Below are positions 28,292 to 34,302 of a stretch of 64,000 nucleotides of DNA, one piece after another (the stretch's first letter is position 1; every line of letters starts with the position of its first letter). The DNA lies in contig JAGDVP010000028.1 of assembly GCA_023255735.1 (NCBI GenBank), forward strand, positions 1 through 64,000, read 5' to 3'. Position numbers and translations under genes: made by a program. This DNA is from Halothiobacillus sp. Lineage in GTDB: Bacteria > Pseudomonadota > Gammaproteobacteria > Halothiobacillales > Halothiobacillaceae. The notes beneath the pieces were generated by a model. It was not told the origin of the DNA, made no database searches, and saw nothing but the letters and a program-made list of their open reading frames with translations.

Positions 28292-28708
28292 TTATTGGCT
28301 GCCATTGCCGAATAATGCCGGTTTTTTGGGCGGATGAATGCCATAAGGCAAATTGGGTTGCAGGGTTTCAATTAAGCCACTCTCCATGGCTTGAGTTTGC
28401 ATGAGGGCAAGGCCGGGGTCGGTATTCGTGTTTTTATTCAAAATAAGCAGGTACCACGCGTTGCCGATCGGCTGGATAGATTGCACGGATTGAGTTTGAA
28501 ACGCCCGATAAAGCTGGGCGAGCGTATCGGCGGTGTCGGGCAGATTGGGCTTGAGTTTGAACAGGTATTCACCCGGCAGAGCCGTGGGATTTTGTGTCAT
28601 CGCATGGGGCTTCGCGGGTGGAGGTTCAGAGATCGGTGTTAAACCGGCACTTTGACAACCGGTCAGCATCAAGGGCGCGAGCAGCGCGGTGATAAAAGGT
28701 ATTTTCAT
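28292..28708 (-). CDS. Lipoprotein resembling a subtilase propeptide
   Basis: Protein of 138 residues with a lipobox (LMLTGC, Cys18). After a Pro-rich linker, residues about 45-130 follow the pattern of the propeptide of the protease encoded just upstream: PGEYLFKL, then PIGNAWYLLIL, then ETLQPNLPYGI, against GQVLIRY, AIGHTGYQLVEL and AVQPNYIYHA in the protease. Its ATG overlaps the protease stop codon (ATGA). I infer a membrane-anchored inhibitor or folding helper for that protease. The similarity was seen by eye only. Confidence 0.65.
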   Translation of the reverse strand: MKIPFITALLAPLMLTGCQSAGLTPISEPPPAKPHAMTQNPTALPGEYLFKLKPNLPDTADTLAQLYRAFQTQSVQSIQPIGNAWYLLILNKNTNTDPGLALMQTQAMESGLIETLQPNLPYGIHPPKKPALFGNGSQ

Positions 28709-30912
28709 ACGCCAAGCCCTGTTTTGCGTTGGGTGCCCAGCCCGCGATACAGTGCAAAAATTAAGCCGAACAACAGCAAAAACCCAAGGTTCATGCTGCC
28801 CCCTCCGCCTGATGTCGGGGTTGTGACTTGGAAGCTTTGCGTCGCTTGTTGGCCATAAGTATCGCTGACGGTGAGATTAACGCTCGAAGTGCCGCCAGCC
28901 GTGGCCAATAATTGCAGGGTGCAGTTACCCGCAGCGGTGCAGGTGGTTTGGCCGGTAATACCGGTGTTGGGCAGCACGGCGGTATTGCTGCTGGTGGCGT
29001 TAAGGCTTAATGCATCAAGGCCGCTGATCGTTACGCTCACCGGTTGGCTGACGCCTACGGTTAAGTTTATGTTCGCAATGGGTGCGATACTTAAATTAAT
29101 TTTCGCCAACGCATTAATCGCGCTAACCACCTTGCCCGATGTGGTTTTGCCGGTAAGCGAAGGGGCGGGTGTGCCACTGGTTTCAATGGCCTGAATAATT
29201 TGATCCGGCGTGGCGGTGGGTTTAGATGCCATGAGCAGCGCGGCAATGCTCGACACGATCGGGGTGGCCATTGATGTGCCATCCAAAACCCCCATCGCCG
29301 TTGTATTTTGAGCAACCGTATCCAAGGTGAGGAGGGCTATTAAAGGCCCAATATCATTGCCACTGGCATCGGTGCGCAATTCGAACCCGATAGTGCAAGC
29401 TGCCGCCGCGCATTGATCCACAGGCAACGAATTGGCGGGCGGGGTTAATGAGCCGGTGACTTTATCGAGGAGTGTGCCGCCGTTAAATGGGTTCTGGTTT
29501 CCTGTGATGACGGCGGTGCTTAAATAATCACCCGAGCTGACTTTACCTTGGCGATAAAAGTTTAAGGCCACATGCTGAACATCGGCGCTGAAGCTGAAGG
29601 GTGCCCATATCTGATCCACCGTGTTATTGGCATACACATTGGTGCCGCCATAGGGGACGGGGTCCACCAAAATGGGTACGCCAGTGGTTGTTGAGCCATA
29701 GCCCCAACCTGAGCCGGCGTGAAAACTTCCCGTCCAGTTTTTAAAGTCCGTGGTTTGGCTGGCGCCCGCCACGGTGCTTAGGATATTGGTGCCCGGCGCG
29801 CCGACATCGACACTGGTTGCGCCATAATTTGAGAAGCTGGCTAATTGAAAGGCTTGATCCACGGCTGCCACGCAAATGAGGTTGCTTTGCGTGAAATTGC
29901 ACGGATAAGTCGGGGTTTGATCGTTATCCACGCTTTCGTTGCCAGCCGCCACCACAACGATCACCCCTTTGCTTTGCGCGTTGGTGATGGCATCGGAAAA
30001 GGCGGGGTCGAGTGTGCCGCCACCCAAACTTAAATTAATCACCTTGGCCCCATGATCGACCGCAAAGTTAATGCCTTGCGTGACGGTTGCGGTGGTGCCA
30101 CCCGTCGAGCTCAGTGAGCGAATCGCCATGATGCTCGCTTTTTGGCACACCCCGGAGCCTTCAATGCCATTGTTGGCCTGAGCGCCAATAATGCCCGCGA
30201 CATGCGTGCCGTGGTGCTCATCCCCCGTGTTGGGGTAGGGGTTGTTGTCGTTATCGATAAAATCGTAGCCATGATAGGGGTAGGCGCTGCCGCCATTCCA
30301 CATGCTTGCGGCGAGATCTTGCTGGGTGTAGTTAATGCCTTCATCTACCACTGCCACGGTGACCGATGAACAATCGGATTGATGCTTCCAAGCCGCTTCA
30401 ATGCCAATATCATCGCCCGCAATGCCGGGATTATTGGTGGCGTAATCGGCATTGCTGATGGTTTGGCCGCTGTTTTTCAGCCCCCATTGTTGGCCGATTT
30501 GCGGATCGTTGGGAAGCGCCATGGCGTGGTAAATGTAGTTGGGTTGCACCGCGGCAACCCCGGGCAGGGCGCGCAATTGCGCCATGGCTGAATCGAGCGA
30601 ATCAAAGCCGGGTTTGAGTTCAACTAACTGATAGCCAGTGTGGCCAATTGCCGTGACGCGAGTGACCATAGCAGCCATGGCGGGTTGAGCGCTTTGTGCG
30701 GAAAGATCGGTGTTGTAACGAATCAGTACCTGCCCCTGAACTACTTGTGGGGCGGTTTGGGCTGCGCCCATTTGGCTTACCGCCGCGGCTGGCGTCAGCT
30801 TAATCGCATCGGTGTTGAGGGTCAGGCTTGTGGCCGCGCCAAGGAGGGGGTAGCCCGCAGTGGCGATAACCAAGGCGATGAGGGTGCGTTTTTGTGTGGT
30901 GCGTTGCATCAT
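28705..30912 (-). CDS. S8 subtilisin-like protease with GlyGly-CTERM tail
   Basis: Secreted serine protease of 735 residues. Order: signal peptide (about 1-28), propeptide (about 55-130), catalytic domain with Asp190 (VAVVDEG), His234 (HHGTHVAG), oxyanion Asn325 (AAGN) and Ser547 (GTSMATP). About 160 residues are inserted between GAPGTNILS and the serine, with a jelly-roll-like pattern. A bacterial Ig-like region (about 600-695) precedes the C-terminal SGGGG (701-705), a hydrophobic helix and a basic end. That tail is a GlyGly-CTERM signal, known to be cut by rhombosortase after type II secretion. No rhombosortase gene is in the window. The downstream lipoprotein is translationally coupled. 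Confidence 0.92.
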   Translation of the reverse strand: MMQRTTQKRTLIALVIATAGYPLLGAATSLTLNTDAIKLTPAAAVSQMGAAQTAPQVVQGQVLIRYNTDLSAQSAQPAMAAMVTRVTAIGHTGYQLVELKPGFDSLDSAMAQLRALPGVAAVQPNYIYHAMALPNDPQIGQQWGLKNSGQTISNADYATNNPGIAGDDIGIEAAWKHQSDCSSVTVAVVDEGINYTQQDLAASMWNGGSAYPYHGYDFIDNDNNPYPNTGDEHHGTHVAGIIGAQANNGIEGSGVCQKASIMAIRSLSSTGGTTATVTQGINFAVDHGAKVINLSLGGGTLDPAFSDAITNAQSKGVIVVVAAGNESVDNDQTPTYPCNFTQSNLICVAAVDQAFQLASFSNYGATSVDVGAPGTNILSTVAGASQTTDFKNWTGSFHAGSGWGYGSTTTGVPILVDPVPYGGTNVYANNTVDQIWAPFSFSADVQHVALNFYRQGKVSSGDYLSTAVITGNQNPFNGGTLLDKVTGSLTPPANSLPVDQCAAAACTIGFELRTDASGNDIGPLIALLTLDTVAQNTTAMGVLDGTSMATPIVSSIAALLMASKPTATPDQIIQAIETSGTPAPSLTGKTTSGKVVSAINALAKINLSIAPIANINLTVGVSQPVSVTISGLDALSLNATSSNTAVLPNTGITGQTTCTAAGNCTLQLLATAGGTSSVNLTVSDTYGQQATQSFQVTTPTSGGGGSMNLGFLLLFGLIFALYRGLGTQRKTGLGV

Positions 30913-31035: not shown

Positions 31036-31917
31036 TTATATCGCTTGCTTGGGCACCAAATGGTGTTTTAAAAAGCCGGCTAATTCATCCATGTGCTGGC
31101 CTATTTCATCGCTGGCATCATGCTCGCCGGGTAGGATTCTTAAAATAACCTCGTGATGCGGGCGGCGTTCATAAAGGGCTTTTGCATCGTCGGGCGGTAC
31201 GGTGGTGTCCTCGCTGCCGTGCATAAGCAAGATGGGGCAGCGGATGCTTTGGATGCTGTTGACGGGCGCAATGGCATCAAAGCGGTAGCCAATCACCCAC
31301 TGCACATAGGTGAGCACATACCAGCCGAGCGGAAAAAACGGCAGGCCTTTTTCTGCCAGCCAGCGGCGCATCATGCCATCGGGGTGGGCAAACGCGGCGA
31401 GGCTCACCACGGCAGAAATATCCGCTCGGCGCGAGGCGGCAAGCAAGGTGGCGGCCGCGCCGACGGAATGCCCGATGAGCGCGGTGCGCTTAATGCTTAA
31501 GTCGGGTTGGGTTTTAAGCCAAGCGAGGGCTGCGTCAATATCTTCAGCAAAGCGGGGCATCGATGAGAAGTTATCGCTATCGCTGCTGCCGTGATTGCGG
31601 GCATCAAACAGCAGCACGCTAAAACCCGCCGCCTGCAGTGGGCGCGCCAAGGGCAGCATGAGTTCTCGATTTGCACCCCAGCCGTGGGTGATGACGACAA
31701 GGCCTTGGTTGGGCTGGCCGGGGAGCAACCAGCCATCCAGCATTCGATGGCGTTGGGTGGGTATGCGGATGGCCTGGCCAGATAACCCATGCTCGGCGAG
31801 GGTGTAAAGAATGGGTTCACGCGGGGCAGTCAAGCTTCGGCGCAATCGGCGGTTGAGTAACAGCAACAGCAAGATGAGGGTGGCGCTACCGATGAGTGCA
31901 GAGATTAAAAATATCAT
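31036..31917 (-). CDS. Membrane-anchored alpha/beta hydrolase
   Basis: Hydrolase of 293 residues with an N-terminal transmembrane helix (about 2-22) and a basic segment after it. The alpha/beta-hydrolase core shows THGWGANRE (oxyanion region), nucleophile Ser151 in GHSVG, acid Asp in HGSEDTTVP and His in GEHDAS. Substrate unknown; peptidase and esterase relatives share this shape. It begins nine bases after envZ ends, so it is the third gene of the ompR-envZ operon. Confidence 0.85.
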   Translation of the reverse strand: MIFLISALIGSATLILLLLLLNRRLRRSLTAPREPILYTLAEHGLSGQAIRIPTQRHRMLDGWLLPGQPNQGLVVITHGWGANRELMLPLARPLQAAGFSVLLFDARNHGSSDSDNFSSMPRFAEDIDAALAWLKTQPDLSIKRTALIGHSVGAAATLLAASRRADISAVVSLAAFAHPDGMMRRWLAEKGLPFFPLGWYVLTYVQWVIGYRFDAIAPVNSIQSIRCPILLMHGSEDTTVPPDDAKALYERRPHHEVILRILPGEHDASDEIGQHMDELAGFLKHHLVPKQAI

Positions 31918-31926
31918 TGCAAGGGA

Positions 31927-33459
31927 TTAACTCGTGGGTTCGGGCATGGTTTTAGGTAGGCTGATTTGCACCCGTGTGCCGCCGCCCTCACGCGGTAAAA
32001 TCAGGATATCGCCGCCCATGCCGCGTACGATGGCTCGGGCAATCGCCAGCCCTAAACCACTGCCGCCGGTATGTCGCGCGCGGGAGGATTCCAAGCGAAC
32101 ATAGGGCTCAAAAACCCGCTCTCGATCGGCTTCGCTAATGCCAGAGCCTCGATCTTCAATCGATAGCGTGAGGTGATCCCGCGATTCATTAAAATATAAA
32201 TCAATTTGGCCATTACCGTAGCGACGCGCGTTTTCGAGAATATTTTGCAGGGCGCGTTGCAGGGCTTGTGGGCGGGTTTTGATGGGCTGATAGGCCTCGC
32301 CGTGGCGCGTGATATGGGCGCCGAGCAGTTCCATGTCTTCACAGAGAATATCCAGCAAGGCGTTGAGATCAAAGGCCACAATCGGCTCAGAGGGCGTGCC
32401 CGCCCGCAAAAAAGCCAGCGTATGGCCGATCATGTCATCCATCTCGGTTAAATCCGCTTCAATTTTTTGCTTCAGCGCATCGTCGGGTAAATGGGCGATG
32501 CGCAGGCGCAGGCGCGTGATGGGCAGACGCAAATCGTGCGAAACCCCCGCCAGTGCTTGGCCACGGGCTTCTATCATGCGTTTAATATCGTTTTGCATTT
32601 GGTTAAACGCGCGCGCTGCTCGGGCAACTTCACGCGGACCGTGTTCATCAAGCGGAGCTTGGTCGAGATGTTTGGGCAGCTGGGCGGCCGCCATGGCTAG
32701 GGCATCCAGCGGGCGGGTGAGTCGCCGCACCACAAAGCCGATGCCCACAATCACTAAAACGCCGAGTAACAAAAGCCAGCCCATCGTTCTAAACGGCCAG
32801 CGAATGGGCGGGGGCAGGGCATGGCGCAGGGTAAGCACACTGCCATCATCCAGCCGCGCTTGAATGAGTAAAAACCGCTCTTCGTGCGGCGGGGGCAATG
32901 GCTTGATTTGCCAAGGATGCGTGCGTGCCCAAAGCGGGGTGGGCAGTTCTAATTGTTCGCTGGCTAAGGTATCAAGCTCGAACGGGCGCCTAGGGTAATC
33001 TTCCCATTGCACGGCGAAGACTTGCAGGGGAATCGGGGTGAGCAGGGCTTTGCGTAGCCGCGCGGCGAATAGTTCACTGGCTTGGTTGATGCGATCAGTT
33101 TGGGGGTGCTTTTGGGGCTCTCGCCAGGCTTGCCGAGCCAGAAGCCGGGTGGGTGGGGCACTGAGCCAGCGTGCCAGTTGGCGCCGCTCTGCGGGGGTGG
33201 CTTCATTTTGAATCTGGATAATTTGGGCAATGCGTTGCACCGCATAATCGCCTAATAAGCGCTCGCCCAAGCGGGCACGATCGGTGAGCAGCAGGCTTAA
33301 ACTTAGCGTAAAGGCCGCCACAATCCCTAAAATCAAGGCCAGTAAAATTTGGCCAAATAAGCTTTTAGGTAGAATATTGAGCGAGCTTCGTGCCGCCGGC
33401 TTGCGTATCGGATGAAAGCGGCGGGAGGGGGACGATTCGCTTAAAGGGGCGGTAGGCAA
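31927..33459 (-). CDS. EnvZ-like sensor histidine kinase
   Basis: Transmembrane sensor kinase of 510 residues. Two helices (about 33-58 and 224-245) enclose a periplasmic domain of about 165 residues, followed by a HAMP segment (RRLTRPLDALAMAA), the dimerisation helix with His308 in AGVSHDLRLPITRLR, and the ATPase domain with NILENARRYG, DRGSGIS and GGSGLGLAI. The H box and domain order match the EnvZ/OmpB type. It starts 17 bases after the response-regulator gene. The sensory domain is long and divergent, so osmolarity sensing should not be assumed. Confidence 0.88.
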   Translation of the reverse strand: MPTAPLSESSPSRRFHPIRKPAARSSLNILPKSLFGQILLALILGIVAAFTLSLSLLLTDRARLGERLLGDYAVQRIAQIIQIQNEATPAERRQLARWLSAPPTRLLARQAWREPQKHPQTDRINQASELFAARLRKALLTPIPLQVFAVQWEDYPRRPFELDTLASEQLELPTPLWARTHPWQIKPLPPPHEERFLLIQARLDDGSVLTLRHALPPPIRWPFRTMGWLLLLGVLVIVGIGFVVRRLTRPLDALAMAAAQLPKHLDQAPLDEHGPREVARAARAFNQMQNDIKRMIEARGQALAGVSHDLRLPITRLRLRIAHLPDDALKQKIEADLTEMDDMIGHTLAFLRAGTPSEPIVAFDLNALLDILCEDMELLGAHITRHGEAYQPIKTRPQALQRALQNILENARRYGNGQIDLYFNESRDHLTLSIEDRGSGISEADRERVFEPYVRLESSRARHTGGSGLGLAIARAIVRGMGGDILILPREGGGTRVQISLPKTMPEPTS

Positions 33460-33476
33460 TCTTTTATCCTTGGCGA

Positions 33477-34205
33477 CTATTTTGGGCGACCGGGCAGCGC
33501 CGGAGCCGCGCCCAATTGATTGGTAATCAGCATGTAGCCTTCATTGCGAATGGTTTTAATCAGGGTAGGCTCGCGGGCATCATCCCCCAAACGGCGGCGC
33601 AGGCGGCTCATCATCACATCAATGGTGCGATCTAGTGGATCCGCATCGCGTCCGGCTAGGGCATCCATCAGCTGATCCCGTGATAGCACATGGTTTGGGT
33701 GTTCTGCCAAGGCTTTGAGCAAACGAAACTCACCGGTGGAAAGCGGGGTGACCACCTGATCGGCGCCCACAAGATGCCGTGCGGCTAAATCGAGTATCCA
33801 GCCGCCGAAGTGCAAATTGCGCACCGTGCTACCTTGCCCCTGCTGTTCGGCACGGCGAAAAATACTGCGAATGCGCGCCAGCAATTCGCGGGGATGAAAG
33901 GGCTTGGGCAGATAATCATCAGCGCCCATTTCCAAACCAATAATTCGATCCATCTCATCGCCCCTTGCCGTGAGCATTAAGATGGGCGTGCTCATTCGAG
34001 CGCGCACGTTGCGGCACAGTGTTAAGCCATCATCGCCGGGCAGCATCACATCTAGAATGATAAGGTCAATCTGCGTATCGGCGAGTCGAGCCCATAAATC
34101 GCCGCCTTCAGCCGCCTCAATCACAAGATAACCTTGCTCACTTAAATAGGTGTGCAACAGGGCGCGTAAATCAGGATCATCATCGACAACCAATAAGGTT
34201 TTCAT
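33477..34205 (-). CDS. ompR: OmpR-family response regulator
   Basis: DNA-binding regulator of 242 residues. The receiver has Asp8-10 and phosphoacceptor Asp52 (LDVMLPGDDG); the winged helix (about 135-230) contains LSTGEFRLLKALAEHPNHVLSR in two parts, RTIDVMMSRLRRRLGDD and the final IRNEGYML. I chose the ATG at 34205 (MKTLLVVDDD). It is paired with the downstream EnvZ-like kinase. Divergent from it is a Spy-like gene, and a spaced direct repeat lies between, which fits control of that gene by this regulator. Confidence 0.9.
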   Translation of the reverse strand: MKTLLVVDDDPDLRALLHTYLSEQGYLVIEAAEGGDLWARLADTQIDLIILDVMLPGDDGLTLCRNVRARMSTPILMLTARGDEMDRIIGLEMGADDYLPKPFHPRELLARIRSIFRRAEQQGQGSTVRNLHFGGWILDLAARHLVGADQVVTPLSTGEFRLLKALAEHPNHVLSRDQLMDALAGRDADPLDRTIDVMMSRLRRRLGDDAREPTLIKTIRNEGYMLITNQLGAAPALPGRPK

Positions 34206-34302
34206 GCGGGTCTCACTTTGCTCAATCAATTACCCCCATCTTAGCCGAGTGGCGGCTGGGCACTGAAACTTAACTTCGGTAAATAACAAAATACCCACAC
34301 GC

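Follow-up and report, generated by a model that had tools for sequence, protein, structure and literature searches.

A subtilase gene overlapping the gene of a prodomain-like predicted lipoprotein, a candidate inhibitor, in Halothiobacillus and other Gammaproteobacteria

Prodomains of S8 proteases act as intramolecular chaperones and, until they are degraded during maturation, as inhibitors built into the protease. A free propeptide can inhibit its cognate subtilase in the nanomolar range, with a C-terminal tail that binds in a product-like manner, and the C-terminal tail also influences the potency of the known stand-alone inhibitors (PMC10580911). Stand-alone inhibitors of the I9 type have been described in fungi, plants, and protists and include Plasmodium SUB1-ProM, Toxoplasma MIC5, Pleurotus POIA1, the yeast proteinase B inhibitor, and Arabidopsis SPI-1 (PMC6993865). 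In our literature search, which covered few subscription journals, no bacterial stand-alone I9 inhibitor was found, and none that was lipid anchored and operon coupled. Here, we describe a bacterial subtilase gene that is coupled to the gene of a small, prodomain-like predicted lipoprotein.

The window, a stretch of 64,000 nucleotides, comes from a 2.06-Mb draft genome of Halothiobacillus sp. that is 93.5% complete. The two genes and their features are listed in Table 1. The original prediction placed the start of the lipoprotein gene over the stop codon of the protease gene, and the sequence bears this out: the protease ends with GTA-TGA, and the lipoprotein starts with ATG-AAA. Directly upstream of the protease and on the same strand (31036-34229 of the window, minus), genes for a response regulator, a histidine kinase, and an alpha/beta hydrolase were found, which may be regulators or members of the protease locus; the kinase and hydrolase genes are also present in another locus (L035).

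Table 1. Features of the protease-lipoprotein locus, in window positions
Feature	Position	Strand	Basis
S8 subtilase gene, 735 aa	28705-30912	minus	Peptidase_S8 E 1.2e-46; triad Asp190, His234, Ser547
Protease prodomain, ~aa 58-131, predicted cleavage after Met131	30520-30741	minus	Pfam Fervidolysin_NPro-like E 3.5e-7; tail comparison; 3vv3 mature start
GlyGly-CTERM-like sorting signal of the protease, aa 701-735	28708-28812	minus	TIGR03501 14.0 bits, cut-off 15.5
Stop/start overlap ATGA, 4 nt, protease to lipoprotein	28705-28708	minus	sequence
Prodomain-like predicted lipoprotein gene, 138 aa	28292-28708	minus	open frame; conserved in relatives
Lipobox LTGC, aa 15-18; predicted lipidated Cys18, then Gln	28655-28666	minus	sequence; Cys invariant in family
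Prodomain-like domain, aa 45-125, predicted strand-helix-strand-strand-helix-strand	28334-28576	minus	profile-profile match, HMM tests, AlphaFold core
Pro126-Pro127, directly after the residue matching the prodomain P1	28328-28333	minus	tail comparison

The protease starts with an N-terminal signal and a prodomain, followed by the Peptidase_S8 domain, a weak Ig-like region, and a hydrophobic, basic C-terminus rich in glycine. The lipoprotein begins with a signal that carries a lipobox and a Cys, the latter invariant across the family alignment (A4, below), and is probably anchored by lipid; the lipoboxes of the G147 and G181 orthologues are less canonical, and the Pfam model LPAM_1 gave 13.9 bits on the window lipoprotein, below its cut-off of 20. 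None of the lipoproteins compared has Asp directly after the Cys, which under the E. coli sorting rule points to the outer membrane. No Pfam or NCBIfam domain scored above cut-off on the lipoprotein, and its family is without a model among those searched in these collections. Pfam Inhibitor_I9 (PF05922) gave no match over cut-off in the genome or for the lipoprotein; the protease's own prodomain likewise fails this model, indicating that the miss reflects a limit of the model and does not count against the fold. A second Pfam model, Fervidolysin_NPro-like (PF22148), matched the protease with 30.9 bits (cut-off 21) and did not match the lipoprotein.

The lipoprotein had been proposed to repeat the pattern of the protease's propeptide. 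All three motifs are present in both proteins (GEYL, IGNAWYLL, and QPNLPY in the lipoprotein; GQVL, IGHTGYQL, and QPNYIY in the protease), but the middle one reads IG-xxx-Y-x-L, with three residues and not two between Gly and Tyr. When all six frames of the window were scanned, this three-motif pattern was found in the lipoprotein and the protease only, and it occurred in 0 of 200 residue shuffles. Pairwise comparison missed the relation (BLASTP of lipoprotein versus protease, E 0.12, wrong register), and a profile of the Halothiobacillus orthologues (A1) gave a weak, shifted alignment to the prodomain that was insufficient. Searched against 369 gammaproteobacterial genomes, the A1 profile found distant small lipoproteins in other families, which were added to give alignment A4; with these additions, the relation to the prodomain became significant. 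The hhalign comparison of the A4 lipoproteins with the protease prodomains gave a probability of 96.7% and an E value of 3.9e-10 over 75 collinear columns, and the profile-profile score of 58.2 compared with 19.6 for the best of 200 column shuffles and 7.9 for the reversed profile. In the window's genome, the A4 profile had two matches at E ≤ 0.01, the lipoprotein (2.6e-48) and the protease prodomain (4.1e-5). The cleanest test was an HMM built from the non-Halothiobacillus lipoproteins only, which found the same two in the six frames of the window (2.7e-12 and 1e-7); its prodomain match stops at the predicted P1 of the protease, residue 131. In the reverse search, the prodomain profile matched the lipoproteins of G211 (1.5e-6) and G061 (5e-5). 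Against solved structures, the profiles had no significant match; with the broader profile, three of the six best-ranked entries were proteases, represented by chains of prodomain length, at nonsignificant E values of 0.4-1.7. Homology of lipoprotein residues 45-125 to the S8 prodomain is well supported by the profile-profile and HMM comparisons, and the propeptide likeness claimed originally holds.

AlphaFold2, run with the window lipoprotein and one orthologue as input, predicted a core at residues 46-118 with a pLDDT of mostly 75-81 and the strand and helix order given in Table 1, which is the arrangement of S8 prodomains (PMC6993865). Foldseek and VIA-align searches of the PDB returned general ferredoxin-like folds only, with no prodomain among the matches listed. 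Since S8 prodomains, which have two helices packed against an antiparallel sheet of four strands, fall in the broad ferredoxin-like fold (SCOP d.58), this result agrees with a prodomain but does not discriminate. The predicted fold is thus compatible with an S8 prodomain at moderate confidence and, as the original prediction would have it, not unlike a propeptide. A two-sequence prediction of the full-length protease (pLDDT 31) was set aside.

When 14 lipoprotein domains and 12 prodomains were placed in one tree, the two sets were split with support of 99/99; the rows are short (76 columns), and relations within the lipoprotein clade are unsure. This separation indicates that the lipoproteins are an old family of single origin, separate from the propeptides, and did not arise again and again by duplication of the neighboring prodomain. 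The idea of a membrane-anchored copy of the propeptide therefore stands in that the lipoprotein is a prodomain homologue, but it is not a recent copy. Recent duplication of the propeptide of its own protease was rejected on the basis of the 99/99 split.

The co-occurrence of the two genes was surveyed, and the pair was found in related and in distant genomes. Among the nine comparison genomes of the same genus (G001-G009), both genes are adjacent in six, both are absent from two (G004 and G006), and in one (G008) the contig stops within the protease gene. Outside the genus, the lipoprotein gene lies beside an S8 gene in G266, G211, G335, G071, G147, G181, and G061, which represent six further gammaproteobacterial families. 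Consequently, 14 of the 15 lipoproteins found (7 from Halothiobacillus and 7 from the six other families) have an S8 neighbor. Of the pairs in which the protease comes first, 11 of 12 show the 4-nt start/stop overlap, with GTG as the start in G211; the exception is G061, where the lipoprotein starts ~9 nt downstream of the protease stop. Both G061 genes are in one frame, with one TAG stop and these ~9 nt between them (L095 ~2190-2203). The order is reversed, with the lipoprotein upstream of the protease, in G181 (L096 3244-3699) and G147 (L099 5923-6363). In G071 (L100 5754-7605), the protease gene is broken into two frames, through either a frameshift or an assembly error, and the lipoprotein gene is intact. 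The single orphan (G736, L094 6216-6674) has apparent heme-synthesis genes as neighbors, and its genome has no S8 gene other than a distant one elsewhere. A search of plasmids revealed no relative.

Viewed from the protease side, the subfamily, defined by matches that run through a long insertion (approximately residues 389-500) ahead of the catalytic Ser block, was present in 11 of the 369 genomes of the class, 8 with the lipoprotein and 3, all of one family (f2), without it. None of the remaining S8 matches, most of which stop before the insertion, was near any lipoprotein match. Immediately upstream of each of the three f2 proteases lies a gene for another small predicted lipoprotein (L138 3637-4047, L139 3-413, and L140 5065-5502), with an Fn3-like domain (E 6e-4, below cut-off), and this protein could be an alternative protease partner.

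These distributions bear on whether the two proteins work together. The lipoprotein might have an unrelated function, its prodomain resemblance reflecting fold and ancestry only and its adjacency operon inheritance; ferredoxin-like folds have many roles, and one copy is an orphan. We regard this as very improbable, given that the other 14 copies adjoin an S8 gene in seven families and in both gene orders, and that two Halothiobacillus genomes lack both genes together. Furthermore, the QPNxxY strand and the tail, which contact the protease in S8 prodomains, are among the best-kept parts of the lipoprotein.

The C-terminal tails were compared with respect to the cleavage site. The last prodomain strand of the protease aligns without gaps to that of subtilisin BPN' (EEDHVAHAY), and this alignment sets the protease P1 at Met131 (QPNYIYHAM / ALPNDP); the mature form of Deseasin MCP-01 in its solved structure (3vv3) starts at about the same place. 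Three lipoproteins from three lineages terminate exactly at the P1 equivalent (QPNNIYRKN, QPSYAYRPQ, and QPNYIYRSK), and those of Halothiobacillus, G266, and G147 carry Pro-Pro directly after it. The G061 tail has Pro at the second position after the P1 equivalent only, and the tails of G181 and G736 are exceptions to both arrangements. A product-like end, or Pro at P1', may make the tail hard to cleave. Co-variation between lipoprotein tails and cognate propeptides (p 0.04; 0.09 and 0.14 with one of two related lineages omitted) was too weak and was dropped as support for cognate matching.

Together, these features favor, with some confidence, the reading of the lipoprotein as an S8-type prodomain on a lipid-anchored chain of its own, which would inhibit its cognate protease in trans within the envelope. 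The sequence analysis itself establishes the homology, the linkage, the overlap, the single origin, and the tail geometry; inhibition, lipid anchoring, outer-membrane location, and export route are predictions. The two proteins would be co-expressed through the stop/start overlap, and the folded domain of the lipoprotein would dock onto the mature protease, with its last strand and tail (QPNLPYGIH) placed in the active-site cleft like a cleaved propeptide. With the chain ending at P1, or Pro-Pro following it, the tail would be cut poorly and the lipoprotein would persist. The periplasm and outer membrane could thereby be shielded from protease molecules that mature ahead of export or in its course, and activity at the surface might be tuned by the lipoprotein.

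With regard to export, the genome encodes a rhombosortase (TIGR03902, 141 bits, cut-off 84) and the type II secretion system (T2SS) protein GspD (573 bits, cut-off 351). The C-terminal GlyGly-CTERM-like signal of the window protease scores just under the cut-off, and the orthologue in G009 exceeds it (17.2 and 17.4 bits) and is the only GlyGly-CTERM match among those listed for that genome; one GlyGly-CTERM protein has been reported in Halothiobacillus neapolitanus c2 (PMC3237569). The best GlyGly-CTERM match of the window's own genome (G000:C7:33223-33288, minus; 21 bits, over cut-off) falls within a different open frame of 87 aa. VesB of Vibrio is processed by rhombosortase and then reaches the surface through the T2SS (PMC6219818). 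By analogy, the protease is probably exported by type II secretion and anchored at the surface through GlyGly-CTERM and rhombosortase.

Such a route would also suit a membrane-tethered steric foldase or export chaperone, in which the lipoprotein assists periplasmic folding and hands the protease over to type II secretion, as the lipase foldases Lif/LipB do, or CpaB for CpaA. S8 prodomains are intramolecular chaperones, and GspD and rhombosortase are both encoded; the protease, however, has a complete prodomain of its own, which would normally supply folding, and tails that end at P1 or are blocked by Pro-Pro suit a partner that stays in the active site better than one that catalyzes folding. 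The hallmark of T2SS chaperones is a membrane-anchored partner encoded in the adjacent gene (PMC4713064), and the lipoprotein gene does adjoin that of a putative T2SS substrate, but the N-terminal transmembrane segment of the known chaperones is replaced here by a lipobox signal. A foldase thus appears rather unlikely.

The C-termini of the proteases are relevant to another reading, that the lipoprotein is a docking or stabilizing subunit, a permanent membrane partner of the mature protease and not primarily an inhibitor, as PrcB is for Treponema PrtP. Dentilisin offers a precedent for a lipoprotein partner in a subtilase operon (PMC8167434), and the partnered proteases of G266, G211, and G335 lack a GlyGly-CTERM-type C-terminus, so that the lipoprotein could supply their anchor. 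A second anchor would be redundant in Halothiobacillus, G181, and G147, whose proteases have their own C-terminal sorting-like signal, and a prodomain fold with a P1-like tail would occupy the active site; we therefore consider this subunit role improbable. Much of the evidence for the inhibitor reading is common to the foldase and docking readings. The G266, G211, and G335 proteases (L097, L101, and L098) end right after residues resembling the start of an Fn3 domain, e.g., PPTGVTATV, which gives the impression that a C-terminal domain was lost or became separate.

Returning to the inhibitor reading, several observations count against it. The protease already carries its own prodomain, one lipoprotein is an orphan (G736), and the three f2 proteases are without this partner. 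The tails of G181 and G736, and in part that of G061, depart from the rule; cognate tail matching is weak; and the protease's GlyGly-CTERM score is below cut-off, with no such C-terminus in G266, G211, and G335. A wider proposal is offered tentatively: in a system widespread among Gammaproteobacteria, overlapping genes would encode a subtilase together with a mimic of its prodomain product that is tethered to the outer membrane and resists cutting. Held by its tether, the mimic would inhibit the protease only in the envelope of its own cell, and the protease would become fully active only on leaving it, as in a spatial switch. To our knowledge, such a switch by a tethered prodomain mimic is undescribed for bacterial subtilases. 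If true, it would help to explain how self-digestion is avoided in Gram-negative bacteria whose subtilases mature within the envelope, and it would provide a simple two-protein system in which to ask whether location alone switches a protease on.

Among the described systems, the dentilisin complex PrtP-PrcB-PrcA of Treponema resembles this locus in combining a subtilase with lipoprotein partners in one operon at the outer membrane (PMC8167434). Unlike PrtP, the protease scores below the NCBIfam dentilisin cut-off (NF033595, 67.4 of 300 bits), and PrcB is a 23-kDa protein with homologues reported only in oral treponemes. The metzincin and TIMP-like lipoprotein pair of Listeria (PMC8235301) likewise joins a secreted protease to a lipoprotein shaped like its inhibitor, but there the protease is a metalloprotease, the fold is that of TIMP, the origin is a phage, and the lipoprotein is cleaved by the protease. 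The T2SS membrane chaperones Lif/LipB and CpaB (PMC4713064) share an adjacent gene, an N-terminal membrane anchor, and a cognate exported enzyme, whereas their domains are unrelated and their anchor is a transmembrane helix instead of a lipobox. With the fervidolysin-type S8 prodomain (PF22148), the lipoprotein shares a homologous domain, the same strand and helix order, and the same QPNxxY end; it differs in lying on a separate, putatively membrane-anchored chain that is not cut from a precursor, in forming its own clade, and in having no Pfam match. The stand-alone I9-type inhibitors are also prodomain-like proteins from their own genes, SUB1-ProM is encoded beside its target as well, and the importance of their C-terminal tail for inhibition is a further likeness. 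These inhibitors are eukaryotic and have no lipid anchor, in contrast to the bacterial predicted lipoprotein described here, with its stop/start overlap and its putative inhibition. Stand-alone prodomain-like inhibitors are thus already known, and, although a literature search is no proof of absence, what appears to be new is a bacterial, lipid-anchored, operon-coupled version.
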